Of a DNA stretch of 64,000 nt, positions 6,309-62,701 are shown one piece after another. The stretch is from Cyanocohniella sp. LLY (GTDB lineage: Bacteria > Cyanobacteriota > Cyanobacteriia > Cyanobacteriales > Nostocaceae). The position numbers were made by a program, and so were the translations under genes. How positions within the stretch are numbered: the stretch's first letter is position 1; every line of letters starts with the position of its first letter. Location: NCBI GenBank assembly GCA_022241785.1, contig JAKOMP010000001.1:62001-126000 (forward strand), read 5' to 3'. The notes beneath the pieces are model-generated. The model was not told the DNA's origin. It saw nothing but the letters and a program-made list of their open reading frames with translations, and did not search any database.

Positions 6309-7031
6309 TTACCATTCTACCCTACTAGTCGCTACAAGCAATAGAGGATGTGCCCACCATAACAGACCTATAAAAATTGTTACTCCTAAATAGGCTGGAC
6401 GGATAAATTCCTGCCATTTGATAGATTGACGACCATCAATAATTGCTTGGAAAGGAATAATTGAAGTCCGTTGTTTGGCAATTTCAAAAGCTTCTCCATA
6501 ACGGGAAGCTAGCCGGCGATCGCCATGCCAAACACCAAACATATGGTGCAATATCAAACCAATGGAAGTAACTAGGGTAAAACTAGTCCCTAACCACAGA
6601 GTATGGGCAACACACCAGATTATTTGCCCTACCATCTGCGGATGGCGGGTAATACGAATGATGCCTGTCTCGTAGAGGGATACTTGGGGCTTTTGAATAG
6701 CGGCAATTTCTAGTAGATTGAAGGTGGCAGGATACAAAAACAAAAACGAAATTGCTGACAACACCCAAACTACTGACTTTACGCCAGGTACGCCCTGCAC
6801 CTGCCACATTTGTAAGCCATCGTAGCGATGATTAAAAAAATAAATAATTAAGATCACAGCCAACGGTAAACTAACTAATGCAAAAAAAATGCGATAAAGC
6901 CTTGGCCCTATGTACTTCTCTGCCCAAGGACGTAGAGCGGCTCCTCCACTGTGGGCGATCGCAAAAGCTATTTGTAACCCCAACATGACAAAATGACTGG
7001 GAGTAAGCCAAGAATTCAGCATCATATACAT
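6309..7031 (-). CDS. NnrU family membrane protein (possible Z-ISO-like carotene isomerase)
   Basis: A 240-residue integral membrane protein with about six hydrophobic helices. The NnrU core includes AFAIAHSGGAALRPWAEKYI, GIIRITRHPQMVGQIIWCVA and a GDRRLASRYGEAFE segment. In plants and some cyanobacteria, members of this family are 15-cis-zeta-carotene isomerases (Z-ISO) that bind haem through conserved His residues; several His residues of the HPQMVG and ILHHMFG type are present here. In proteobacteria NnrU is linked to nitric-oxide metabolism. The carotenoid role is therefore a family-based inference. It is divergent to rbcR, and their shared 206-bp promoter region contains nested palindromes. 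Confidence 0.85.
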   Translation of the reverse strand: MYMMLNSWLTPSHFVMLGLQIAFAIAHSGGAALRPWAEKYIGPRLYRIFFALVSLPLAVILIIYFFNHRYDGLQMWQVQGVPGVKSVVWVLSAISFLFLYPATFNLLEIAAIQKPQVSLYETGIIRITRHPQMVGQIIWCVAHTLWLGTSFTLVTSIGLILHHMFGVWHGDRRLASRYGEAFEIAKQRTSIIPFQAIIDGRQSIKWQEFIRPAYLGVTIFIGLLWWAHPLLLVATSRVEW

Positions 7032-8422: not shown

Positions 8423-9787
8423 ATGGAAGTCTACTGCACCCGTCCTCGCTGTCCGCGCCCTAAAAATCATTTTGCGGATTTAGATGATGTCACAACATTA
8501 AGAACAACACAGCAAAAATACTGCACTACCTGTGGGATGCCACTTCTGCTGGATGGTCGGTATGTACCCATTAAGTTACTGGGAAAAGGTGGTTTTGGTG
8601 CAGCTTTTCTCGCACGCGATCGCCGGATTCCCGGAATGCGTGAATGTGTAGTTAAGCAATTCCAACCGGCGGGAAATTTAAGCGCTACTCAACTACAATT
8701 AGCACAACAGCTGTTTGAAAGAGAAGCTGAAGTTTTATCCCAAATCGGCAACGAACATGAGCAAATACCTGACTTATTTGCTTTTTTTCCCGTGGCAGTT
8801 AATAGCTTGCAACCAGGACAACAAGACCAATTTTTTTACTTAGTTCAAGAATATATTGATGGGCTAAATCTCGAAGAAGAGTTAATGCAAAATGGTAAAT
8901 TTTCGGAACAGCAGGTTGTAGAAGTACTATCAGAAATTTTGAAAGTATTACAGTTTGTTCACGATAGACGCATTATTCACCGAGATATCAAGCCTTCTAA
9001 TATTATGCGTCGTCGAGATGGCAAACTTTTTCTGTTGGATTTTGGCGCAGTTAAGCAAGTAACAAATGCCCCATCAGCCGGTGCGGGTTCTTCTACAGGT
9101 ATTTACTCTATGGGATTTGCCCCACCTGAGCAAATGGCAGGTAATCAAGTCTTTCCATCAACAGACTTATATGCTTTAGCTGTAACTATGCTGAATTTGC
9201 TCACAGGCCAAGAAGCAAATCAGTTATTTGATGCCTATAGCAACCAGTGGAAATGGCGCTCTCAAGTCAGTATTAATCCTCGACTAGCTGATATTTTAGA
9301 TAAAATGCTGCTACCAGCGGCTAATCAACGCTTTCAGTCAGCTAATGAGGTGCTGACAGCCCTAAATGAGCCATCCACACTCCCTGTTATACCCAAACCC
9401 CAGCCCCAGATACAGTCCCAAGCAACACCATCTCAACCGACGTTTGCCACTTGGGAATTATTAGGTGGTGCCGCTTTTAGTGGCTTCGAAGGGGCATTAA
9501 TTGCCATCGCCTTGTTTAGTTTATTGCCAGAAGTTATTATTACCTTGCCAGTTGCCGCCTTAATTTTAGGTATACTAATTTTTGCCCAAACTAGGCGGTG
9601 GATTGAAAAATTTGATTTATTAATAATTTCGGGAATCACCTTCGCTATTATTGTTTTTACTCCCTGGTTTCAGGGTAATTTAGGTGTTCCAGAAATCGCA
9701 CTTTTTGCAGTGGCATCTGCTTTAGTGACCATTGCCGTGACAGCAATATTTCGCCTGATTTATAAATTATTATCTTTGATATTTTAG
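8423..9787 (+). CDS. Membrane Ser/Thr protein kinase with N-terminal zinc ribbon
   Basis: 454 residues in three parts. First is a probable zinc ribbon with Cys at 5, 10, 34 and 37 (CTRPRC ... YCTTCG). Next is a Hanks-type kinase with the glycine loop LLGKGGFGAAFLARD, the catalytic loop HRDIKPSNIM and the DFG motif in LFLLDFGAVKQV. A Pro/Gln-rich linker then leads to three or four C-terminal membrane helices (about 345-450). All catalytic motifs are intact. The next gene starts 20 bases downstream on the same strand and encodes a membrane-anchored periplasmic-binding protein, so the pair looks co-transcribed and may work as a receptor-kinase unit. Targets are unknown. Zinc-ribbon kinases of this design are frequent in filamentous cyanobacteria. 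Confidence 0.9.
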   Translation: MEVYCTRPRCPRPKNHFADLDDVTTLRTTQQKYCTTCGMPLLLDGRYVPIKLLGKGGFGAAFLARDRRIPGMRECVVKQFQPAGNLSATQLQLAQQLFEREAEVLSQIGNEHEQIPDLFAFFPVAVNSLQPGQQDQFFYLVQEYIDGLNLEEELMQNGKFSEQQVVEVLSEILKVLQFVHDRRIIHRDIKPSNIMRRRDGKLFLLDFGAVKQVTNAPSAGAGSSTGIYSMGFAPPEQMAGNQVFPSTDLYALAVTMLNLLTGQEANQLFDAYSNQWKWRSQVSINPRLADILDKMLLPAANQRFQSANEVLTALNEPSTLPVIPKPQPQIQSQATPSQPTFATWELLGGAAFSGFEGALIAIALFSLLPEVIITLPVAALILGILIFAQTRRWIEKFDLLIISGITFAIIVFTPWFQGNLGVPEIALFAVASALVTIAVTAIFRLIYKLLSLIF

Positions 9788-40389: not shown

Positions 40390-41145
40390 ATGCGACAAAA
40401 TAATCCCATTACTGTAGAATTTCGTCACGTCACCTTTAGCCGCAACCATCGCCCTTTAGTATCAAATTTGAACTTCTCGATTCACCAGGGCGAAGCCTTA
40501 GTATTACTCGGACGTAGTGGTAGCGGTAAAACTACAACCATGAAATTAATCAATCGCCTACTGACACCCACCCAAGGCGAAGTTTTATTTAATGGTATCC
40601 CTACAACTCAGTGGGATGAAATTCAACTGCGGCGCAAAATTGGTTATGTGATTCAAGAAACTGGCTTGTTTCCCCATTTCACGGTAGAACGCAATGTGGG
40701 TTTAGTCCCGGCTTTAGAAGGTTGGCCACCAAAACAAATTAAAGCGCGAGTTTATGAATTGTTACAATTGGTAGGCTTAAATCCCCAAGAATTTGCAGGA
40801 CGCTATCCCCATGAACTTTCGGGAGGACAAAAGCAACGGGTGGGTGTTGCTAGGGCTTTAGCTGCTGATCCGCCTGTATTATTGATGGACGAACCATTTG
40901 GCGCACTTGATCCCATCACCCGTTTAGAACTGCAACAAGAATTTCGGCGGTTACAACAAGAATTAAGTAAGACAGTGGTGTTTGTCACCCACGATATTCA
41001 AGAAGCCTTTGTTTTAGCTTCACGTATTGGTTTAATGTATGACGGAGAATTGGTAGTATTGGGGACAAAGGATGAATTTAAGCGATCGCAACATCCAGAA
41101 AGTTTAGCTTTTCTTGAATGTCTGCGTTCTCTAGAAAATATATGA
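40390..41145 (+). CDS. Osmoprotectant (glycine betaine/choline) ABC transporter ATPase
   Basis: 251 residues. Walker A LGRSGSGKTTTMKLINRLL, Q-loop YVIQETGLFPHFTVERNVGL, signature LSGGQKQRVGVARAL and Walker B VLLMDEPFGALDP identify the ProV/OpuBA group. It lacks the C-terminal CBS domains of some members. It is the first gene of a three-gene importer operon; its stop overlaps the permease start by ATGA. Confidence 0.93.
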   Translation: MRQNNPITVEFRHVTFSRNHRPLVSNLNFSIHQGEALVLLGRSGSGKTTTMKLINRLLTPTQGEVLFNGIPTTQWDEIQLRRKIGYVIQETGLFPHFTVERNVGLVPALEGWPPKQIKARVYELLQLVGLNPQEFAGRYPHELSGGQKQRVGVARALAADPPVLLMDEPFGALDPITRLELQQEFRRLQQELSKTVVFVTHDIQEAFVLASRIGLMYDGELVVLGTKDEFKRSQHPESLAFLECLRSLENI

Positions 41146-52796: not shown

Positions 52797-53945
52797 TCAT
52801 TGCTCTTCGCTTTCTTGATATAAGTGTTCTAATTCTTGCAACTGTGTTTTCCGAGATACGCGACGATACTTTTTACTCTCTAATTTCGGTTCGTACTGTT
52901 GCTTACCCTTACCTTTAGTTTTCATCTTCAGCGTTGATTCGGGATCGGCCTGTTGGTTAAGATGAGTTTGCCGCGCGATCGCCTCATCTAAAAATTCCAA
53001 ATAATGTACATACCTTTCCCAGTCGCCTCGCACTACACAATCAGGCTCATCTCGATGTAGACAATCACTAAATCGACAGTTAGCTTCAACTAAAGGCTTT
53101 CTAGCTTCTGGGAAATAATAGATTAATTCTTCCGGGGGACAATCCAAATCAGGCTGATTAAAACCGGGAGTATCTGCCAGTAAGCCTCCATCTGGCATTT
53201 CAAATAATTCTACATGGCGGGTGGTATGACGACCACGAGCTAATTTACCGGAAACTTCCCCCACGCGCAGGTTAACAGTGGGTATCAGCGCATTAATTAG
53301 GCTAGATTTGCCCACACCGGAAGGCCCAGCAATTACTGTAATTTTGTTGCTCAGATGATTAGCTAATTTGTCAATATTTATGCCATTTTGGACACTAATA
53401 AATAAAGGTTGATAGCCCCATGCCAACAGGCGATCGCTTATTTCTTGTTGTTCCTGTGGTGAAACCAAATCACATTTATTCAAACATAAAAGCACATCCA
53501 CATCAGTAGACTCAGCTTTCAGCAGAAACCGACTTAATTGGTAAGGTTCTAGCGGCGGATCAGCAACAGCAAACACTAAAAGAATTTGGTCAACATTAGC
53601 GATCGCTGGACGATCCAATTGGCTGGAACGGGGTAAAACATCAGAAATTGCCCCTCTACCCCCAGACCAATCTGGTTCTTCCACAACCACGCGATCGCCC
53701 ACCATCACCTGTTGCCCGATTTTTTTCAGACGGGTTCTGCGAGTACAGAGGAGGATGGGAGTTGGGAGTTGGGAAGAATCATTTTCTTGTTCCCCCCTGC
53801 CCCCTGCCCCCTGCCCCCCTGCCTCTTCTGCCTCTTCTGCCTCTTCTGCCTCTTCTGCGTCCAGCTGTACGCGATAAAAATTTGCTTGCACGGCTACCAC
53901 CGTACCAATTAACTGTCCGGTAGTAGAGATAGTATCTACTGTCAT
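52797..53945 (-). CDS. rsgA: Ribosome small-subunit-dependent GTPase RsgA
   Basis: 382 residues from the ATG at 53945, which overlaps the tusA stop (ATGA). It is a circularly permuted GTPase: NKCD (G4) comes first, then GPSGVGKSSLINAL (G1) and DTPGF (G3). The C-terminal zinc motif is NCRFSDCLHRDEPDC. RsgA helps late 30S maturation. In the N-terminal OB domain, an insert of about 37 residues (EEAEEAEEAEEAGGQG...) is encoded by a 9-bp repeat (53818-53859) plus CCCCTGC and GGGAGTT units, the same sequences that occur between genes elsewhere in the window. This insert is in frame. Confidence 0.93.
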   Translation of the reverse strand: MTVDTISTTGQLIGTVVAVQANFYRVQLDAEEAEEAEEAEEAGGQGAGGRGEQENDSSQLPTPILLCTRRTRLKKIGQQVMVGDRVVVEEPDWSGGRGAISDVLPRSSQLDRPAIANVDQILLVFAVADPPLEPYQLSRFLLKAESTDVDVLLCLNKCDLVSPQEQQEISDRLLAWGYQPLFISVQNGINIDKLANHLSNKITVIAGPSGVGKSSLINALIPTVNLRVGEVSGKLARGRHTTRHVELFEMPDGGLLADTPGFNQPDLDCPPEELIYYFPEARKPLVEANCRFSDCLHRDEPDCVVRGDWERYVHYLEFLDEAIARQTHLNQQADPESTLKMKTKGKGKQQYEPKLESKKYRRVSRKTQLQELEHLYQESEEQ

Positions 53946-54199
53946 TGGGCAGTAACAGGACGGCGGACTAGCAAGGCAAAATAGCCCATGCAATCTGTAA
54001 TTTGCTCAACATGATAACCTGCCATTGTCAAGCTATCAGGAACTTGCTCAATTGGTTCTCCAGAGTCTAGCCATACTTCTAGCAAACCTCCTGGCGACAT
54101 TTTTTCCAGATATAATTTTGTTCGCACGAAGTTAATGGGACAAGGTGTGCCACGTAGATCAAGTTGAGCATCGGGAGATGAAAGGGAGGATAAAATCAT
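53942..54199 (-). CDS. TusA-family sulfurtransferase
   Basis: 85 residues with the sulfur-carrier motif LDLRGTPCPINFVRTKLYLE, in which C20 would carry the persulfide. TusA proteins move sulfur for tRNA thiolation, molybdenum cofactor and other pathways. The ATG overlaps the dnaJ stop (TAATG) and the stop overlaps the rsgA start, so the three genes form a tightly coupled operon. Confidence 0.9.
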   Translation of the reverse strand: MILSSLSSPDAQLDLRGTPCPINFVRTKLYLEKMSPGGLLEVWLDSGEPIEQVPDSLTMAGYHVEQITDCMGYFALLVRRPVTAQ

Positions 54200-55335
54200 T
54201 ACTTAAATAGATTTCCCAAGAATCCTTCTAGACCACCTTTACCGGTACGGTCTCCCTTGATTTTAGCCAGTTTCTCCAGCAATTCTCTTTCCTCTGGAGT
54301 CACCTTGTTAGGAATGTCAATTAATACCGTCAGCATATGATCTCCGCGACTGACAGGATTACCTAACCGGGGTACGCCTCTATTTTCCAGCTTCATCACT
54401 GTATTTGGCTGGGTACCTGCGGGAATAATCAATTCCACGGGTCCGTCTACTGTCTCTACCTCCAAACGACATCCTAAAATTGCTTGCAGATAACTGACTT
54501 TAATTTCTGAGAGAACATTAATTCCATCCCGCTGGAATTCTTCATCTTCATTGACAAATAAATAAACGTACAAATCTCCAGGAGGTCCGCCACGTTGTCC
54601 TGCATCCCCTTCTTGGGAGATTCGCAAGCGTGTACCATTGTCCACTCCAGCCGGAATGGTAATTTTTAGTTTCTTGGGTACTTGATTTGTCCCCTTACCA
54701 TCACAAGCATCACACTTATCTTCAATTACCATGCCCGTACCGTTACAGGTGGGACAAGTCGAAACTTGAGTAAAGCTGCCAAAAGGCGTTCTCGTAACGC
54801 GGCGTACTTGACCCGAACCGCTACAAGTGGAACAAGTGCGCGGACGAGTTCCCGCTTTAGCACCGGAACCACCACACACGTCACACACTTCTAAATGCGA
54901 AATGCGAATTTCCTTTTCGCCACCAAATACCGCTTCGCGAAAGTCTAATTTTAGGTCTAGCCTTAAGTCGTCACCTCGTACTGGCCCGCTGCGCCGTCTT
55001 TGTGTTGGGCCACCAACGCCGCTACCAGCAAAGCCACTAAAGATACTTTCAAAGATATCGGCAAAACCGCCCATATCCCCCATATCTTGGAAGCCTGCGC
55101 CAGCAGCAGCAGCGCCTGAAACACCAGCTTCACCAAAACGGTTATAACGCTCTCGAACATCTGGCTCAGAAAGCACTTCATAAGCGCGGTTAATTTCCTT
55201 AAACCGATCTTCCGCTCCCGGTTCTTTGTTCACATCTGGGTGATACTTCCGGGCTAAACGGCGGTAGGCTTGTTTGATGTCTTCTTTGTCGGCGTCACGA
55301 GAGACACCCAGAATTTCGTAATAGTCGCGGGCCAT
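54199..55335 (-). CDS. dnaJ: Chaperone protein DnaJ
   Basis: 378 residues from the ATG at 55335 ([20 protein letters not shown]); an upstream ATG at 55392 adds 19 unlikely residues. The J domain has HPD in YHPDVNK, then a Gly-rich stretch, then four CxxCxGxG-type repeats ([32 protein letters not shown]), then the substrate-binding part. It is the DnaK co-chaperone. It heads the dnaJ-tusA-rsgA operon. The usual neighbours dnaK/grpE are 4.4 kb upstream, separated by an insertion-like island. Confidence 0.96.
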
Positions 55336-55846
55336 ATAACAAAGGTAAAAGTTAGGAGGAAGAAAGCAGAAGGCATTAAACGCCACAGTCATTTACTACC
55401 CTACGGTAAGCCGTATCCTGCAAAAGCGACTACCTGTAAAATTAAGGCAATCAGTCTGTTAACCCAAGGGTCAAAACTTTTTCAAGTTACTTGTTTTTGT
55501 AACGTAGTATCCTGAGTTGGGCGGCTTGCCGGAAGCTAGGTAGAAGGCAAAAATAAATTTTTATTAATATATTGATTTTACCTTTTACATTTGACAAAAA
55601 TCACCAGCAAGTTGGAAGCAACAGTTACTTTCCTCATCAAATACAACAAAAGCTGCCAAAGTTAGGAGCTGAGCCTGTCTCTTTTACAATTGTGCTACTT
55701 AGTAGGGTCAAAACACGCTGATAAACCATAGGAGCTAGCCGTACCTAATGGTGCGGAAAACCCTCCAGATAAAATTTAGGCGCATCTGTACTGGTACACT
55801 GTCTAGCCCACGGCAATTCGCTTTTATAATCTAGCAAAATTAGGGG
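55336..55846. other. 511-bp region upstream of dnaJ
   Basis: Holds the dnaJ promoter area (minus strand) and no recognisable gene. A short stretch at 55730-55850 may be the left remnant of a locus broken by the IS630-type insertion that begins at 55848. Confidence 0.4.
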
Positions 55847-55931
55847 CTAGTGGTCTGTCAAGCTAAAAATTGTGAGTTTGAGGGAAAATAGAGCGGCTAT
55901 GCAGTGTAAACTTCACCAGATATCCTAATAA
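55847..55931. repeat. IS630-type left end, copy 1
   Basis: CTAGTGGTCTGTCAAGCTAA ... TATCCTAATAA, 85 bp, nearly identical to the reverse complement of 59552-59636. It carries the terminal inverted repeat of the IS630 derivative. Confidence 0.9.
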
Positions 55932-56279
55932 CTGAGCATGTTCAAGAACTATATTGTCCGGTTAAGTCAAGAGGAACGGCAGACCCTAAAAGATTTGGTA
56001 TCTACAGGGATTGAGGCGGCTTACAAAATAAAGCACGCCAATATTCTATTAAACATTGATGTAAATGGACACAGATGGACGGATGAAGAAGCGGCCGCTG
56101 CCTTTAGTAGCCACCGTAACACCGTCGCAAATCTCAGGGAGCGATTGGTAAATGTTGGTTTAGAGTCAGCCTTAAACCGCAAGCCTAGTAAAAAGCCGCC
56201 TCGTCAACAGGTTATTGATGGAGAGGTGGAAGCAAAACTCATCGCTTTGCATTGTGGGGAACCGCTTGATAGACCACTA
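55848..56279 (+). mobile_element. Internally deleted IS630-family element
   Basis: Begins TAGTGGTCTGTCAAGC (55848) and ends GCTTGATAGACCACTA (56279). The ends are inverted repeats of about 16 bp and are flanked by TA, the known target duplication of IS630/Tc1-mariner elements. It contains only the N-terminal third of the transposase. After about 330 bp of coding sequence it jumps directly to the right end, so the catalytic DDE part was deleted. Confidence 0.8.
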
Positions 56280-56324
56280 GATACAAGCCAAACTTTATCA
56301 CCTGGTGTTGGGACGAAGCGATGA
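55938..56324 (+). pseudogene. IS630 transposase, N-terminal fragment
   Basis: 128 codons are open. The first ~110 (FKNYIVRLSQEERQTLKDLV, WTDEEAAAAFSSHRNTVANL, GLESALNRKPSKKPPRQQVI) form the helix-turn-helix N-terminus of IS630-type transposases. After LHCGEP the sequence runs into the element's right inverted repeat (LDRPLD) and flanking DNA. The DDE catalytic domain is missing, so it cannot transpose alone. Confidence 0.85.
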
Positions 56325-56433
56325 AAAACTTCACCCAAACCCCGACTGGCACCAAAAATCACAAAACGGCTCATCTTCTATTGAAAGCTTTAGAAAGTCT
56401 CAAGGAAGTACTGGGGCTGAAAGAACTATATTA
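56284..56433 (+). other. Unexplained open stretch at the right side of the IS630 derivative
   Basis: Directly after the TA target, a frame encodes YKPNFITWCWDEAMKNFTQT and continues to ESLKEVLGLKELY before a TAA. It has no start and I do not recognise it. It may be the 3' remnant of a gene interrupted by the element. Confidence 0.3.
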
Positions 56434-56436
56434 AAC

Positions 56437-57753
56437 TTAAGATTGTAACCAATCTTTTATTTCATCTATCAACCAATGACCTTCTACGGTTGCTAAAGGA
56501 GTAGTAGTAATTCTTTGCTTTTTCATTAATTCAATAGTTACACCTATAGGTGCTGAAGCTGCTATTTTATCCTCTTGATGAATCTCTTGAATAAATTTAG
56601 TTTTACCACTTTTTTGCCAATAACAAAGTCCAAATAATTTCCATTTTACTTCAAAATTATCTCGGTTAAAATATAACTCTGTATGCCCAAAAAATGATAA
56701 TAAGACAACTAAAATACCCAAAATTAGCGATAAGAAAATAATAAATTGAAAATACCACCAATTATAAGTATTAATTGTAATATTTATAACTTGTGGTAAA
56801 AAAGCGACAAGAAAGCTAGCTAGATATACAAAACGTAATGATTTACTTCCACGTTTCGGAATTTTAATTTTAAGAAAGCTAGCTGTTTTTTGAAGCTGGA
56901 TTTTACTACCTGTTGGTTTGTGCTGAGTAATAGCAGGACTTAAAGTATATTTATTCTCAAGAGCAGCAATTGCATCACTTGCTGTGTTAATTCTATCTGC
57001 AATGTTGGGTTCAGTAAGTTTACCAATCCAATTAATCAATCCCAAATCAATGCTAATGAGACTGGCAAATTCGATTCGGCAATTACGATGTGGTAAATCA
57101 GCAGGACTAGTCCCTGTTATTAAATGAATTAATGTTTCACCTAGTGCATATAAATCAGATGCTGGTTCTGCACGTCCAGCAAATTGTTCCATTGGCACAT
57201 AACCATAAGTTCCTACTACAGTAAAAGTGGCACCTTCTGCTACTGCTTTATCTTGTACTGCACCAAAGTCAACTAAATAAACCCGTTTATCATCTCCCAA
57301 AATTAAATTACTCGGTTTAATATCACGATGTAATACAGGTGGTTCTAATGAATGCAAGTAAACTAAAATACTTAATATCTCAATGGCAATTTTTTCGACT
57401 TGTGATTCTGAAAATCGCTGTCCTTGGTTGAGTAATTCTTGCAAAGAGTTACCAGAAATATAACTTTGTACTAAAATAAACCAAGAAAATTTTGAGCCAG
57501 GTAAATTGTCAACAATAAAACAATCTTCATACTGGGGAATGTAGGGATGGTTGAGGTTTTTTAAAACTTGAGCTTCCCGTTCAAATAATTTATGTTCTTT
57601 CCATTGTATTTGTGGATTTAAAGTTAATAGCTTTAAAACTACTTGTTTTGGCGATATTAATGATATTGCTAACCAAGTTTGATGACTACTATTTTGCCCT
57701 AATTTTTTTTGTAATTGATAGCGATTATCGATTACTTGCCCAACTTCTATCAT
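56437..57753 (-). CDS. Membrane Ser/Thr protein kinase (island copy 1, intact)
   Basis: 438 residues. The kinase domain (1-260) has VVLKLL (K41), FEREAQVL (E60), VLHRDIKPSNLIL (HRD 142-144) and VYLVDFGAVQD (DFG 162-164). The glycine loop is degenerate (LGQNSSHQ). Two membrane helices (about 312-360) follow, and then a ~75-residue cytoplasmic-type tail (FNRDNFEVKWKLFGLCYWQK). It lies 26 bases downstream of a paralogous, broken kinase on the same strand and inside the dnaK-dnaJ island. Substrate unknown. Confidence 0.88.
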   Translation of the reverse strand: MIEVGQVIDNRYQLQKKLGQNSSHQTWLAISLISPKQVVLKLLTLNPQIQWKEHKLFEREAQVLKNLNHPYIPQYEDCFIVDNLPGSKFSWFILVQSYISGNSLQELLNQGQRFSESQVEKIAIEILSILVYLHSLEPPVLHRDIKPSNLILGDDKRVYLVDFGAVQDKAVAEGATFTVVGTYGYVPMEQFAGRAEPASDLYALGETLIHLITGTSPADLPHRNCRIEFASLISIDLGLINWIGKLTEPNIADRINTASDAIAALENKYTLSPAITQHKPTGSKIQLQKTASFLKIKIPKRGSKSLRFVYLASFLVAFLPQVINITINTYNWWYFQFIIFLSLILGILVVLLSFFGHTELYFNRDNFEVKWKLFGLCYWQKSGKTKFIQEIHQEDKIAASAPIGVTIELMKKQRITTTPLATVEGHWLIDEIKDWLQS

Positions 57754-57779
57754 TTTTTATTCCAATTAAATTTCTCACC

Positions 57780-59101
57780 TTAAATTCCTAACCAATTCCT
57801 AATTTCCAAAGCAATACATTGGCTTTCTTTTTTTGTTAAACCTTTCTTCAAACGACCAAATGAATATTCATCAACACCGACAGACAAAATTATTTCAGAA
57901 ACTCTATTTCGACCTATACCCCCAGTTTTATAAATATAAATTTTCTCGATGTTTAATACATTGCCACGCTTTCTCATGAAAGTCACACCAAATAATTTCC
58001 ACTTGATTTCAAATTTTTTATTATTGAAACAAATATTATTTTCTACGAACCCAGGTAATGTCAACCAAGCGATGATTGAAGCTCCAAATATAAAAAATAG
58101 CCAGCCTACCCAAATACTTGCTGTACCACCGGAAGTGAGAATAAAAAGTATCCATAGAAGTAATGCACTTCCTCCAAATAATAATTCAATCACATTCTGA
58201 TTCGTGGGAATATCGATTTCTAATTTATCTAATGATTTACGTATAAATACAGGAGTGTAGGGAATATCGTTGTTTGTATTATTTATTGCCAGTTCGTTTG
58301 TTTCCAGTGCTTTGAGTGCCTCTGCTGCTCTGCCAAAGCGAAATTCTGGATTAGGTTCGGTCATTTGCTGTAACCACCTCATTAAACCTGGGTTGAGTTT
58401 TGTAAGATGAGCAAACTGCATCCTTGAATCAAACTGTGGCAAATCTGCTGGTGGAATACCTGTCGCTAAATTTATCAAAGTCGCCCCCAATGCATAGAGA
58501 AGAGATCGGATGCAGGTGTCGCCCGTCCACCAAACTGCTCTAGAGGGGTATATCCATATGTACCAACGACTGTAAATGTTGCACCTTCTGCTGCTGCTTT
58601 ATCTTGTACTGCACCAAAGTCAACTAAATAAACTTGATGTTTATTTTTTGAAGAGTCTAGTAGTAAGTTGCTGGGTTTGATATCGCGGTGCAAAACAGGG
58701 GGGCTGAGTTTATGAAGATAAATTAGTATTTTTAAGACCGCTCGAGCTATTTGTCTGACCTCAGTTTCGCTAAAAGTTTTCCCAGAAGAAAGCAATTCTT
58801 TGATGGATTTTGCATTTATGTATTCTTGCACTAAAGTAAAATATGTAATTTCGCGCTCCAGAACAAAATCATCCTTGTATTGAGGAATGCAGGGATGATC
58901 TAATTGTCGTAGAACTTTCGCTTCGCGCTCAAAAAGTCGCAAATTATCCCACTGTAATTGGTCGCTAGCCATCAGCAGTTTAACAACTACTTGCTCTTGA
59001 TCTATCAAATCCCATGCTAACCAGGTTTGACGAATCGCACTCTCACCCAATACTCTTTGAAGTTGATACCGTTCTACTAATATTTCTTGCGCTTGTAACA
59101 T
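57780..59101 (-). pseudogene. Membrane Ser/Thr protein kinase (island copy 2), frameshifted
   Basis: The N-terminal part (from the ATG at 59101) has VVVKLLM, HRDIKPSNLLL and DFGAVQDKAAAEGATFTVVG. It then shifts frame at PASDLF and stops after 208 residues. The continuation in another frame (ALGATLINLATGIPPADLPQ onward) contains the rest of the kinase lobe, two membrane helices and the same FEIKWKLFGVTFMRKRGN tail as copy 1. The break is AGAGAAGAGA at 58496-58505: removing one AGAGA restores SDLYALGATL, exactly like copy 1 (SDLYALGETL). So a 5-bp tandem duplication caused it. Confidence 0.92.
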
Positions 59102-59256
59102 CGTACTCCTTTTGCTCAGGGGTGCATTATCCTATTGTTTTTTATATCTCTGATAGAAAAAAAAGCTCTGACTGTGAAGCTAATAGATATAAAAGTACAT
59201 TTTGGGGATATTGAGGTGAGAATTTTATGTGTTGGGTACTAGATATGTTTCGGTAG

Positions 59257-59337
59257 ATTGTGGAAATCGTTCTTAGACCTTTGGAAAAGAAAGGTTTTGT
59301 ACTTTTACCCAAACTGGAATTACTCAATAACAATTAA
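59257..59337 (+). pseudogene. Scrap of an IS5-type transposase
   Basis: 27 codons read IVEIVLRPLEKKGFVLLPKL and then a stop. The pattern 'VEIV-R-x-x-x-KGFV-LPK' is that preceding RWVVERTF in IS5-type DDE transposases. The catalytic continuation is absent. Confidence 0.45.
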
Positions 59338-59487
59338 ACAGGCACTGAAGATCAAAAATAAGAAATATGCTGTTTGTAAAAACTCAAATTACAACAGATG
59401 ATCAGCCAACAATTAATCTAGTACAACCTACTTTTATTTGGCTAGTTACTTGATAAGTATTTGACTATTTAATACTAAATTAATAGT

Positions 59488-59524
59488 TTAAAAAAATAAT
59501 ATCTATCTCCAGATAGATATTATT
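59488..59524 (-). terminator. Perfect hairpin with T-run downstream of dnaK
   Basis: AATAATATCTATCT-CC-AGATAGATATTATT, a 14-bp perfect stem. On the minus strand it is followed by TTTTTTTAAA. It could stop dnaK transcripts before the island genes. Confidence 0.7.
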
Positions 59525-59551
59525 TTGGGGTTCTTATTTAATCCTCATTCC

Positions 59552-59636
59552 TTATTAGGATATATAGTGAGGTTTACAGTGCATAGCCTCTCTATTTTCC
59601 CTCAAACTCACAATTTTTAGCTTGACAGACCACTAG
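59552..59636. repeat. IS630-type left end, copy 2 (inverted)
   Basis: 85 bp, the near-exact reverse complement of 55847-55931 (ends CAATTTTTAGCTTGACAGAC, CACTAG). No transposase is attached to it. Together the two copies bracket 3.6 kb containing the kinase genes. Confidence 0.9.
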
Positions 59637-59702
59637 AGACTAGGGACTAGGGACTAGGGACTAGTGAAGTTTTTGTTTACCTCTAACCTCTAGCCTCTCA
59701 AA

Positions 59703-61664
59703 TTAATCTATTGCTTCATAATCAGCCTGTGCGGTACTTTCTTCATCAAAATCAAAGTTGAATTGAGGTATTAGGGTGCCATTCATGGGTTGCTCTGATT
59801 CAGATGTCAACCGACTATCTGGAGCTTCTTCGACTTTTTCACTATCTTGGTCGTTAGCTCGATTATAGACATCAGCACCAATGGCAAATAAAGTTTCTTG
59901 GAAGTCATCTAAACACTGTTGAAATTCTATGAGCGAGATGCTGGGATTTGTCATTACGGCTTGGAGTTGCGCGACTTTTTCGGTGGCTGAAGCTTTCATC
60001 TGCTCGCCAATAAAGAGGCCATTATCCTTTAAGGTGGATTCGTAACTGAATAAAAGATTATCTGCTTGATTTTTGAGCGCAACTAGTTCTTTACGTTTTT
60101 TATCTTCCTCGGCAAATACTTCGGCTTCTTGGCGCATCTTTTCTACTTCGTTGGTACTCAAACCACCGGTATTGGTAATCCGAATACTTTGCTCTCGACC
60201 AGTGCCTTTATCTTGGGCTGCAACTTTGAGGATACCGTTGACATCAATTTCAAAAGATACCTCTATTTGTGGCACTCCACGGGATGCGGGGGGAATTCCT
60301 GTCAGCAGAAATTTACCCAAACTCTTGTTGTCCCTTGCCATTGCCCGTTCACCTTGGAGGACATGAATTTCTACTGATGTTTGTCCATCAACGGCAGTAG
60401 AAAACACTTGGGATTTACTGGTGGGAATTGTGGTGTTGCGTTCGATAATTTTGGTAAATACCTCGCCTAAGGTTTCAATTCCTAAGGACAAGGGTGTAAC
60501 GTCTAGTAACAACAGATTATCAACTTCACCACCCAGTACCCCTGCTTGAATCGCCGCTCCCAGCGCTACTGCTTCATCTGGGTTAATAGAGCGATCGGGC
60601 GCTTTACCATGAAAAAACTTGACGAGGGCATTTTGAACTGCGGGAATGCGGGTGGAACCACCTACTAAAATAATCCGATCTATATCTTGCGCTTGGAGAT
60701 CTGCATCTTTGAGAGCTTGAATCATCGGTTCGATGGTGGCTTCAATTAACCGCCCTGCCAGTTCTTCAAATTGAGCGCGGCTGAGTTCCATTTCTAGATG
60801 CTTGGGCCCACTCTCATCGGCAGTGATAAATGGCAAATTGATGGAGGTACTTGCCATGCTGGAGAGTTCAATTTTTGCCTTTTCTGCTGCTTCCCTGAGG
60901 CGTTGCAGTGCCATTTTATCGAGGGAGAGGTCAATTTCTTCTTCTTGTTGGAAGTGTTTGATCATCCAGTTGACGATAGAGTTATCAAAGTCGTCTCCGC
61001 CTAAGTGGTTGTTACCACAAGTTGCCTTAACTTCAAAAACTCCGTCGCCCAATTGCAGGATAGACACATCAAAGGTGCCGCCTCCCAAGTCGAATACTAA
61101 AATCAACTGTTCTTGGTCTTGCTTTTCCAAACCAAAGGCTAAAGCAGCCGCAGTTGGTTCATTAATGATTCGCAAAACTTCTAATCCGGCAATGGTACCC
61201 GCATCTTTAGTTGCTTGTCGTTGAGCATCTGTAAAATACGCTGGTACGGTAATTACTGCCTGAGTTACAGCTTCACCTAAAAAATTTTCCGCATCCTGCT
61301 TGAGTTTTTGCAGAACCATTGCGGAAATTTCTTGGGGTGTATAATTGCGTTCCCGAATTTGGACATCAACGGTATCGTCTCGGCCTTTGATACAGGTATA
61401 AGGCACACGACTGCGTTCTGTTTCAGTATCTTCCCAGCGACGACCGATGAATCGCTTGATACTGTAAATTGTGTTTTCAGCATTAGTTACGGCTTGGCGC
61501 TTTGCCAGTTGACCGACCAAGCGATCGCCACTTTTCCCAAATCCTACAATACTAGGCGTGGTACGTCCGCCTTCGGAGTTGGAGATCACAATCGGTTGAC
61601 CACCTTCCAAAACTGCGACGCAACTGTTTGTAGTGCCTAAGTCGATCCCAATAACTTTTCCCAT
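59703..61664 (-). CDS. dnaK: Molecular chaperone DnaK (Hsp70)
   Basis: 653 residues. The ATPase domain has [57 protein letters not shown] and [13 protein letters not shown]. The linker [20 protein letters not shown] leads to the peptide-binding domain and a lid with an acidic tail ([19 protein letters not shown]). The tail differs from the EEVD or KD ends of other Hsp70s, as in several cyanobacterial DnaK paralogues. It follows grpE on the same strand (293-base gap); the expected dnaJ neighbour is displaced by the kinase island. Confidence 0.96.
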
Positions 61665-61957: not shown

Positions 61958-62701
61958 TTAACTGTCAGCTGAACTCGACTGATCTTCCTGTGCAGGTGGT
62001 GCGTCTTCCTGAGGAGCAGCCACCTTGACCATTGAATGGCGCAGCACGCGATCGCCCAAATAATATCCGCGTACTAACTCTTCTAACACTGTTCCTTCCG
62101 GATGTTCATCCGTAGGTTCCCGCATAACTGCTTCATGAAGGTTAGGATCAAAGTCTTGACCTTCTGGACGCATTGGTGATACGCCTATGCGTTTGAGGCA
62201 ATCCACAAGTTGTTTATAAACTCCTTGATAACTTTTGTGAATTGTCATCTCGCCATCGGTTTGTGGCTTGAGATGCGCTCGCGCCCGCTCGAAGTTATCG
62301 ACTATGGGCAGCAATTCCAAAATAGTATTGCGTTTTGCCTGCACATCTAGCTCTTCTTTTTCCTTGATGGTGCGTTTACGGTAATTTTCAAAATCTGCCG
62401 CAATCCTCATATATTGAGTATTGCGTTCTTCTACTTGCGCTTTTAGGGAATCGATTTGTTGACTCAATTCTGCCAAAGCCGCCGTTTCTATTTCTTTCTT
62501 ATCTGTTGCAGCGACGCCATTTTCTGCTGGAAGTGTCGCATCTCCCGATACATTAGTTGGAGTTGTCACTTGCTCAGTAGCCTCGCTGCCAGATTCATAG
62601 GAATTGATGTTGGCCGGGGAGTCGCTGTTCATTGCTTGCTTTACCTCTGTTGGTTCACCCAATTGTTGGCTGATATTGTTTACCTGTTTATTTTCGTCCA
62701 T
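61958..62701 (-). CDS. grpE: Nucleotide exchange factor GrpE
   Basis: 247 residues. A ~75-residue acidic/Ser-rich N-terminus precedes the coiled coil ([20 protein letters not shown]) and the family signature [31 protein letters not shown]. The C-terminal beta part has [20 protein letters not shown] and [17 protein letters not shown]. It releases ADP from DnaK. It is the first gene of the grpE-dnaK unit on the minus strand and is divergent to pilB. Confidence 0.96.

Follow-up and report, generated by a model that had tools for sequence, protein, structure and literature searches.

How did a tandem pair of membrane Ser/Thr kinase genes come to lie inside a chaperone locus? The window, by which we mean the whole 64,000-nucleotide stretch of DNA analysed here (positions 62,001 to 126,000 of contig JAKOMP010000001.1, Cyanocohniella sp. 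LLY), contains grpE, dnaK, dnaJ, tusA and rsgA, all identified by Pfam, and between dnaK and dnaJ it contains a 3.8-kb island with two kinase genes, kin1 and kin2, bracketed by inverted ends of an IS630-type insertion sequence (IS). The island is very probably the decayed remnant of a composite-transposon-like unit that moved the kinases into the dnaK-dnaJ gap, and most likely the IS, the kinases and the second IS end moved as one such unit. This reading, already put forward in the initial annotation of the window, is supported by the ends themselves, the empty site in relatives, the same cargo at another place in a related genome, and the CTAG sequences at the junctions. The borders and their surroundings are organized as follows.

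54199-55335, minus strand: dnaJ, 378 amino acids from the conserved start.
55848-55849, no strand: TA target duplication at the dnaJ-side border; the empty site is CTAG with one TA kept.
55850-56277, plus strand: left IS630-family copy of 428 bp, which has an internal deletion and keeps both terminal repeats; its full-length relatives measure 1229 and 1238 bp.
55938-56324, plus strand: truncated transposase open reading frame (ORF; N-terminal helix-turn-helix (HTH) part) that reads from the IS into the cargo, known from the ORF list and from below-cut-off profiles.
59552-59633, minus strand: right IS630 copy, a truncated left end only, 82 bp, matching the outer end of the left copy at 77 of 82 positions.
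59634-59635, no strand: TA target duplication at the dnaK-side border.
59636-59665, no strand: heptad repeat (TAGTCCC type on the minus strand) interrupted by the island; its register resumes on the dnaJ side.
59703-61664, minus strand: dnaK, flanked by grpE and dnaJ as dnaK1 is; its orthology is judged by position only, and the naming follows PMC9239167.

The two arms of the inverted repeat (55847-55931 and 59552-59636) are 85 nucleotides long and 94% complementary, exactly as first described. The repeat is not due to chance, because a 94-bp left end compared by BLAST with the strain's own 6.78-Mb genome (E ≤ 0.001) matched two places only, both of them island borders (E 4e-43 and 1e-31); other kinase genes flanked by this end, which had been suggested as something to look for, are thus not found in this genome. 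In each arm the outermost three bases (C plus TA) belong to the flanking target and not to the element; the element ends at 55850 and 59633, and the ends proper, at 55850-55931 and 59552-59633, are 82 bp long. Both are outermost, outward-facing left ends of IS630 type with a TA beside each. An 82-bp match cannot represent the two ends of one IS, since the left and right ends of full-length relatives agree with each other over ~12-15 bp only, and a single IS with 85-bp terminal repeats was rejected on this ground. Judged by their sequence, the borders are the left ends of two IS copies. The earlier description of the borders as inverted IS630 ends stands, with the correction that the left border is an internally deleted copy and not just an end: its second terminal repeat lies at 56264-56277 and is followed by TA on the inner side.

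The borders also preserve the target. When the flanks are joined with one TA kept, the resulting sequence, CTCTAGCC, has a single CTAG, and the 7-bp repeat TAGTCCC stays in register; looking up heptad repeats by name gave no result. The empty site can be seen in relatives. We fetched the loci of 40 of the 58 relatives with a dnaJ match (34 from the same family and six from the same order), covering up to 8 kb upstream and 2 kb downstream of dnaJ, with two loci (L043, L074) shortened by contig ends. In 37 of them dnaK directly adjoins dnaJ; the other three (L061, L071, L078) have no dnaK there. None of the 40 has a kinase match at the dnaJ locus (tblastn E ≤ 1e-5, at least 40 amino acids). The gap between the two genes, measured from the end of the dnaK match, ranges from ~94 to 1898 bp and is hundreds of bases long in most. 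In Nostocales cyanobacterium LEGE 11386 (G010), the closest relative found and the one with the most similar dnaJ, an island-free gap of ~615 bp aligns with both window flanks across the junction, well on the dnaJ side. The initial annotation had taken the genes on either side of the island for one ancestral grpE-dnaK-dnaJ-tusA-rsgA locus, and the alignment with relatives that it recommended bears this out. The case that it named as decisive against a late arrival of the kinases, namely kinases in the gap without an IS630 end, was sought in the 40 loci and not found.

The cargo is known from elsewhere. On another contig (C35), G010 carries this kinase pair with 92.5% identity across 3129 columns (3.1 kb), and an additional 122-bp piece of this contig starts at a native CTAG exactly where the left IS of the window ends. 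Between this piece and its kinase pair, G010 has a further ~817 bp, absent from the window, that include a transglutaminase-like gene. The left IS therefore has the CTAG of the cargo at one end and that of the dnaK-dnaJ gap at the other, as transposition of the whole block predicts. The cargo comprises the following parts.

56278-56279, no strand: TA on the inner side of the left IS, matching the native TA (within CTAG) of the G010 kinase locus (L130 8408-8409).
56278-56397, no strand: donor-type flank, 93% identical to G010 (L130 8408-8525), stopping where the ~817 bp are missing.
56437-57753, minus strand: kin1, intact, 438 amino acids, with a Ser/Thr kinase domain, two predicted membrane helices and a C-terminal PH-like domain.
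57780-59101, minus strand: kin2, a pseudogene in which five extra bases near 58500 leave ORFs of 208 and 236 amino acids.
59102-59548, no strand: region upstream of kin2, carried with the cargo; 90% identical to G010 up to 59524, with 59525-59548 only probable.

In the strain's own genome no locus of the donor type was found as a unit; besides the island, pieces of the G010 contig match scattered places, among them one of 377 bp (92% identity) and one of 310 bp (88%). In plasmids, the kinase homologues found (561 records) were all below 60% identity and thus no closer, and the island's IS had only partial matches (4 records).

What kind of element provided the ends? Full-length relatives of the IS, 1229 and 1238 bp long with two overlapping ORFs, are present in two other Nostocaceae genomes; one of them (L131) is 86.6% identical over 417 bp and has DDE_3 and IS630 matches above cut-off. 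The left copy in the window is ~0.8 kb shorter than these. Its ORF covers the HTH part only and scores 26.9 bits with the NCBIfam model transpos_IS630 against a cut-off of 100; the Pfam matches HTH_32 and HTH_29 are also below cut-off. Short terminal inverted repeats and a TA target duplication, as in the IS630 family, are both present. Among complete IS relatives and miniature inverted-repeat transposable elements (MITEs) of the same family, removal of the element restores CTAG in 8 of 9 cases, the remaining one giving CTAC; one of the eight is a more distant IS630 in the strain's own genome (42% identical in the transposase piece). Implausible inner repeat pairings were ignored in this count, and three genomes (G101, G063, G014) gave no complete copy. 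As an observation in its own right, MITEs of this IS630 subfamily sit at CTAG in several Nostocaceae: they are 93 bp long in L138 (~1548-1640), L039, L037 and L034 and 92 bp long in L035, and they share the left end and the TA/CTAG target with the island's IS. Unlike them, the right border of the island has no second terminal repeat ~93 bp away, and its inner sequence tracks the IS rather than the MITE variant, so the possibility that this border is a MITE was rejected.

Composite transposons of this family are known. Tenzen and Ohtsubo, in 1991, reportedly described an IS630-associated composite transposon that prefers TA in 5'-CTAG-3', going by the title of that work. To the extent that the title tells, that element and the island are alike in having IS630-family ends outermost, passenger genes between them and TA in CTAG as target, and the island differs in its cyanobacterial IS relative, in the defects of both copies and in its Ser/Thr kinase cargo. 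The single element ISY100 of Synechocystis, as presented in PMC2170065, belongs to the same Tc1/mariner/IS630 family and is cut and pasted into TA, with short terminal repeats being sufficient. It is a 947-bp IS with one 282-amino-acid transposase and no cargo, whereas the full-length relatives of the island's IS are 1.23 kb long and have two overlapping ORFs. In general, IS630-type transposases act on terminal repeats, cut and paste into TA, and duplicate the TA (PMC2170065).

The island thus has two copies of one IS, both partial and inverted, around genes that do not serve transposition, together with one target duplication at the outer ends, an empty site in relatives, and a cargo known from another place, the G010 contig. 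It has no intact transposase gene, the left copy lacking ~0.8 kb and the right copy being an end only, and because neither copy keeps one, the unit is a fossil and not an active element. Several points weigh against a composite-transposon origin. The right copy consists of the 82-bp end only and has a blurred inner junction, where the origin of ~27 bp is uncertain; a second full IS at this border is thus presumed. A close full-length copy of the island's IS was not found in the strain's own genome, where the only other match to the transposase piece is 42% identical. The border CTAG is partly forced, given that the element begins with G, and is informative solely in the joined empty site; the dnaK-side flank is of low complexity and aligns weakly with G010; and the genus is represented by one genome.

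Other histories were weighed as well. The initial annotation had allowed for two IS copies inserted independently at the borders, in which case the kinases would have come between dnaK and dnaJ by another route. The right end without transposase and its unclear inner junction would suit this, as would the 1.9-kb gap of G014 with its short ORF, WD40-like by eye, which suggests that the gap may accept insertions. We nonetheless consider independent insertions unlikely, because the outer flanks fuse to one CTAG in the register of the 7-bp repeat and because the left IS and the cargo meet, with no dnaK-dnaJ DNA between them, at the CTAG native to the donor-type locus; that both ends are outermost and face outward also argues against it. 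Segments bracketed by IS copies can arise through circular intermediates, and a circle of the kinases and one IS could have recombined with an IS resident between dnaK and dnaJ. Such an event would leave IS copies in direct orientation and the observed copies are inverted, which makes this route very improbable.

A mis-assembly that joined a kinase contig into the chaperone locus deserves mention, given that the genome is a draft of 244 contigs, but the island's junctions have the TA/CTAG form left by transposition and lie inside a 195-kb contig. Moreover, no other place in the genome has the IS ends, and the kinases lack a near-identical second copy there (the next best are 44-60% identical), so the usual kind of repeat on which to mis-join is missing, and we think an artefact highly unlikely. 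Finally, the kinases might be ancestral at the chaperone locus and lost there in relatives, with the IS ends as later arrivals. We found no point in favor of this view, which is barely credible: besides the 0 of 40 fetched loci with kinases, all eight genomes in which both places are known have kin2 away from dnaJ, on another contig in seven and ~3 Mb away in one.

If, as we prefer, the kinases arrived as cargo of a composite-transposon-like unit, a single transposition event would account for the whole island. In this model, two IS630-family copies, or one copy and a solo end, would have come to flank the tandem membrane Ser/Thr kinase pair at another locus. An IS630-type transposase could then have used the two outward-facing left ends to move a block of 3.8 kb or longer, and the block would have entered the dnaK1-dnaJ gap at the TA of a CTAG, with duplication of that TA. 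Either before the move or after it, the left IS would have lost most of its transposase and the right IS would have been cut back to its end, while the transglutaminase-like gene would have been deleted and kin2 frameshifted, leaving kin1 intact. The IS deletion, the loss of the transglutaminase-like gene and the kin2 frameshift are read as decay by comparison with G010 and with the IS relatives, and the 817-bp difference could therefore also be a gain in G010.

The two kinases had been described as a pair of membrane Ser/Thr kinase genes, which holds for kin1. An intact kin2 was rejected, since a 5-bp insertion splits its frame into two overlapping ORFs of 208 and 236 amino acids in different frames, while the G010 counterpart is one ORF of 437 amino acids. 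Pfam finds a protein kinase domain in kin1 (PF00069, 107 bits against a cut-off of 31.7) and in the N-terminal piece of kin2. The sequences HRDIKPSN and DFG of kin1, which we take to be the HRD and DFG kinase motifs, fall in invariant columns of an alignment of 21 sequences, reduced from 26 by leaving out L199 (stop codon), L197, L209, L228 and L238. Two structure models of kin1, each with a mean predicted local distance difference test score (pLDDT) of 75, show two membrane-type helices in addition to the kinase domain, as well as a C-terminal beta domain that ends in a helix; the pLDDT of the activation-loop region is below 50. Like the bacterial Ser/Thr kinases of the PknB/StkP type, kin1 has the kinase domain, by both Pfam PF00069 and PDB matches. 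PknB/StkP kinases carry PASTA repeats; Pfam matched none in kin1, whose C-terminal part is unlike theirs in being predicted as two membrane helices within a PH-like domain.

This membrane part (the kin1 C-terminus, window 56437-56946) is predicted to be a PH-like domain split by a two-helix hairpin, and in isolation it is PH-like by fold. Its best fold match is 8kei_D, from the NADPH oxidase 2-p22phox-EROS complex (Z 10.7 over 145 residues; Foldseek E 3e-5), and this chain is presumably EROS itself. PMC13296129 describes EROS as orthologous to Ycf4, a photosystem I factor of plants. For the kinase C-terminus, homology to Ycf4 at the level of sequence was not accepted, as the hhalign profile comparison was not significant (3.5% probability). 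Both kinases also match PD-T4-6 models of PADLOC, with E down to 4e-54 for kin2 of G010 and 1e-52 for kin1, mostly over the kinase domain; among the 25 PADLOC models listed for each, 22 (kin2 of G010) and 23 (kin1) are different PD-T4-6 models. These are broad kinase models, and a classification of the kinases as defence genes on PADLOC evidence alone was rejected.

Relatives of kin2 are found in 36 of 208 family genomes (the strain's own included) and in 15 of 56 genera. From a scan of the genome collection, 80 of 140 kinase loci were kept and the first 32 of these listed. In the best 14, both kinases lie side by side and in the same order, with kin2 incomplete in one (L181), and none of the 14 shows the window's dnaK or dnaJ in the DNA examined. 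Their neighbours fall into two shared contexts (five and four loci) and five unshared ones. Among the 80 loci kept of 140, dnaK is seen only at L242 and L243, 60% identical and ~9 kb off; several loci end at contig ends.

Comparison with G010 also bears on how the pair spread. Synonymous divergence between the strain and G010 is 0.18 for kin1 and 0.10 and 0.23 for two parts of kin2, below all 21 background genes measured: 0.30-1.13 for nine genes around the island and 0.36-1.09 for 12 elsewhere. The nine-gene baseline left out the window gene at 40390-41145 (40% identity) and the C35 match of 8423-9787 (35%). The non-coding DNA upstream of kin2 is 90% identical to G010, compared with 76-88% for three intergenic stretches of the chaperone locus. 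The low divergence is hinting at horizontal sharing, and the kinase pair was probably exchanged between the two lineages after their split. Against such sharing, the kinase proteins are 89-92% identical, not above the background of 75-96%, and the 26-bp kin2-kin1 spacer is only 77% identical. Slow synonymous change is a possible explanation in place of exchange. In a separate observation, a DUF2267 gene beside the G010 kinase locus has a counterpart 98% identical over 454 bp in the strain's own genome (L253 2150-2603, on the 10-kb contig C173), compared with a background DNA identity between the strain and G010 of 82-85% in all eight matches of a 20-kb sample; this may be another sign of shared mobile DNA.

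A broader idea, which we consider rather doubtful, is that kin2-kin1 is a mobile signalling module of filamentous cyanobacteria: the genes stay together in differing neighbourhoods, their distribution is patchy, they appear to have been shared more recently than core genes, and each would have a membrane-split Ycf4/EROS-type PH-like domain. The role of such a module may lie outside housekeeping, in phage defence or in the surveillance of membrane proteins, and landing by a hormogonium-type dnaK1 could give it new control.

Did the island change the expression of its neighbours? The following two features bear on this question.

55336-55847, minus strand: dnaJ upstream region, intact, with a conserved block inside that is matched in 31 of 40 relatives' loci.
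59493-59526, minus strand: AT-rich 15-bp hairpin with a T-run, terminator-like towards kin2, with a fold of -14.3 kcal/mol.

It had been proposed that the island separated dnaJ from the grpE promoter, and that dnaJ now needs a promoter of its own; this finds no support. The conserved block, an unannotated Nostocaceae sequence of ~200 nucleotides (window 55640-55845, minus strand; core GGGGGGTTTTCCACACC..GGTGCGGCTAGCCCC..GTAGCACAATTGTAAAAG), starts about ten bases or less from the edge of the island when nine relatives are aligned, more weakly in L048, and the island leaves it intact. The 31 loci have it wholly or partly (some have only 46-90 bases), and the count includes G010, the source of one of the two queries. 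In the window copy one hairpin arm is changed. The block is a candidate promoter or structured leader. A known RNA was rejected, as there is no Rfam match there; the sole Rfam match with E ≤ 1 in 55300-59800 is an Alphacoronavirus 5' untranslated region at 59490-59526 (E 0.17), far below cut-off. Because the gap is already long in most relatives, the block is intact, and dnaJ11 of Nostoc punctiforme is expressed independently of dnaK1, dnaJ probably had its own promoter before the insertion. In N. punctiforme, as described in PMC9239167, the order is grpE-dnaK1-dnaJ11, grpE and dnaJ11 are constitutive, and dnaK1 is expressed in hormogonia only, from a promoter within grpE.

On the other side of the island, the predicted hairpin within the cargo may stop transcription arriving from dnaK. 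The G010 sequence is predicted to form it too, both partners of one stem pair being changed; it does not appear in the consensus scan. Scans for promoters (12 found, 13.9 expected) and terminators (2 found, 2.7 expected) gave no more than chance would.

The island is an ordinary kind of gene move, cleanly seen and now fossilised in a dead unit, and our general view of transposition is unchanged. Given that IS630 composite transposons were already known, kinase cargo in a cyanobacterium is an added example, and indicates that IS630 elements can carry kinases in these bacteria; no literature title on a kinase composite transposon in cyanobacteria was found, which is not proof of absence. The value of the locus lies in how well it documents regulatory genes being relocated by an IS to a conserved chaperone locus, with the empty site, the donor-type locus and the insertion at a native CTAG all visible. 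It further illustrates that the dnaK-dnaJ gap tolerates 3.8 kb with the conserved dnaJ upstream block retained.

Two minor observations concern neighbouring sequences. In G014, the dnaK-dnaJ gap (L051 6112-8000) is 1.9 kb long and contains an ORF of 72 amino acids (6542-6760, minus strand) that is WD40-like by eye; this gap may have taken another insertion. In the window, simple repeats with CCCCCTG- and GCCTCTTCT-type units (53790-53860) enter the 5' part of the rsgA frame and give an EEA run at the N-terminus.

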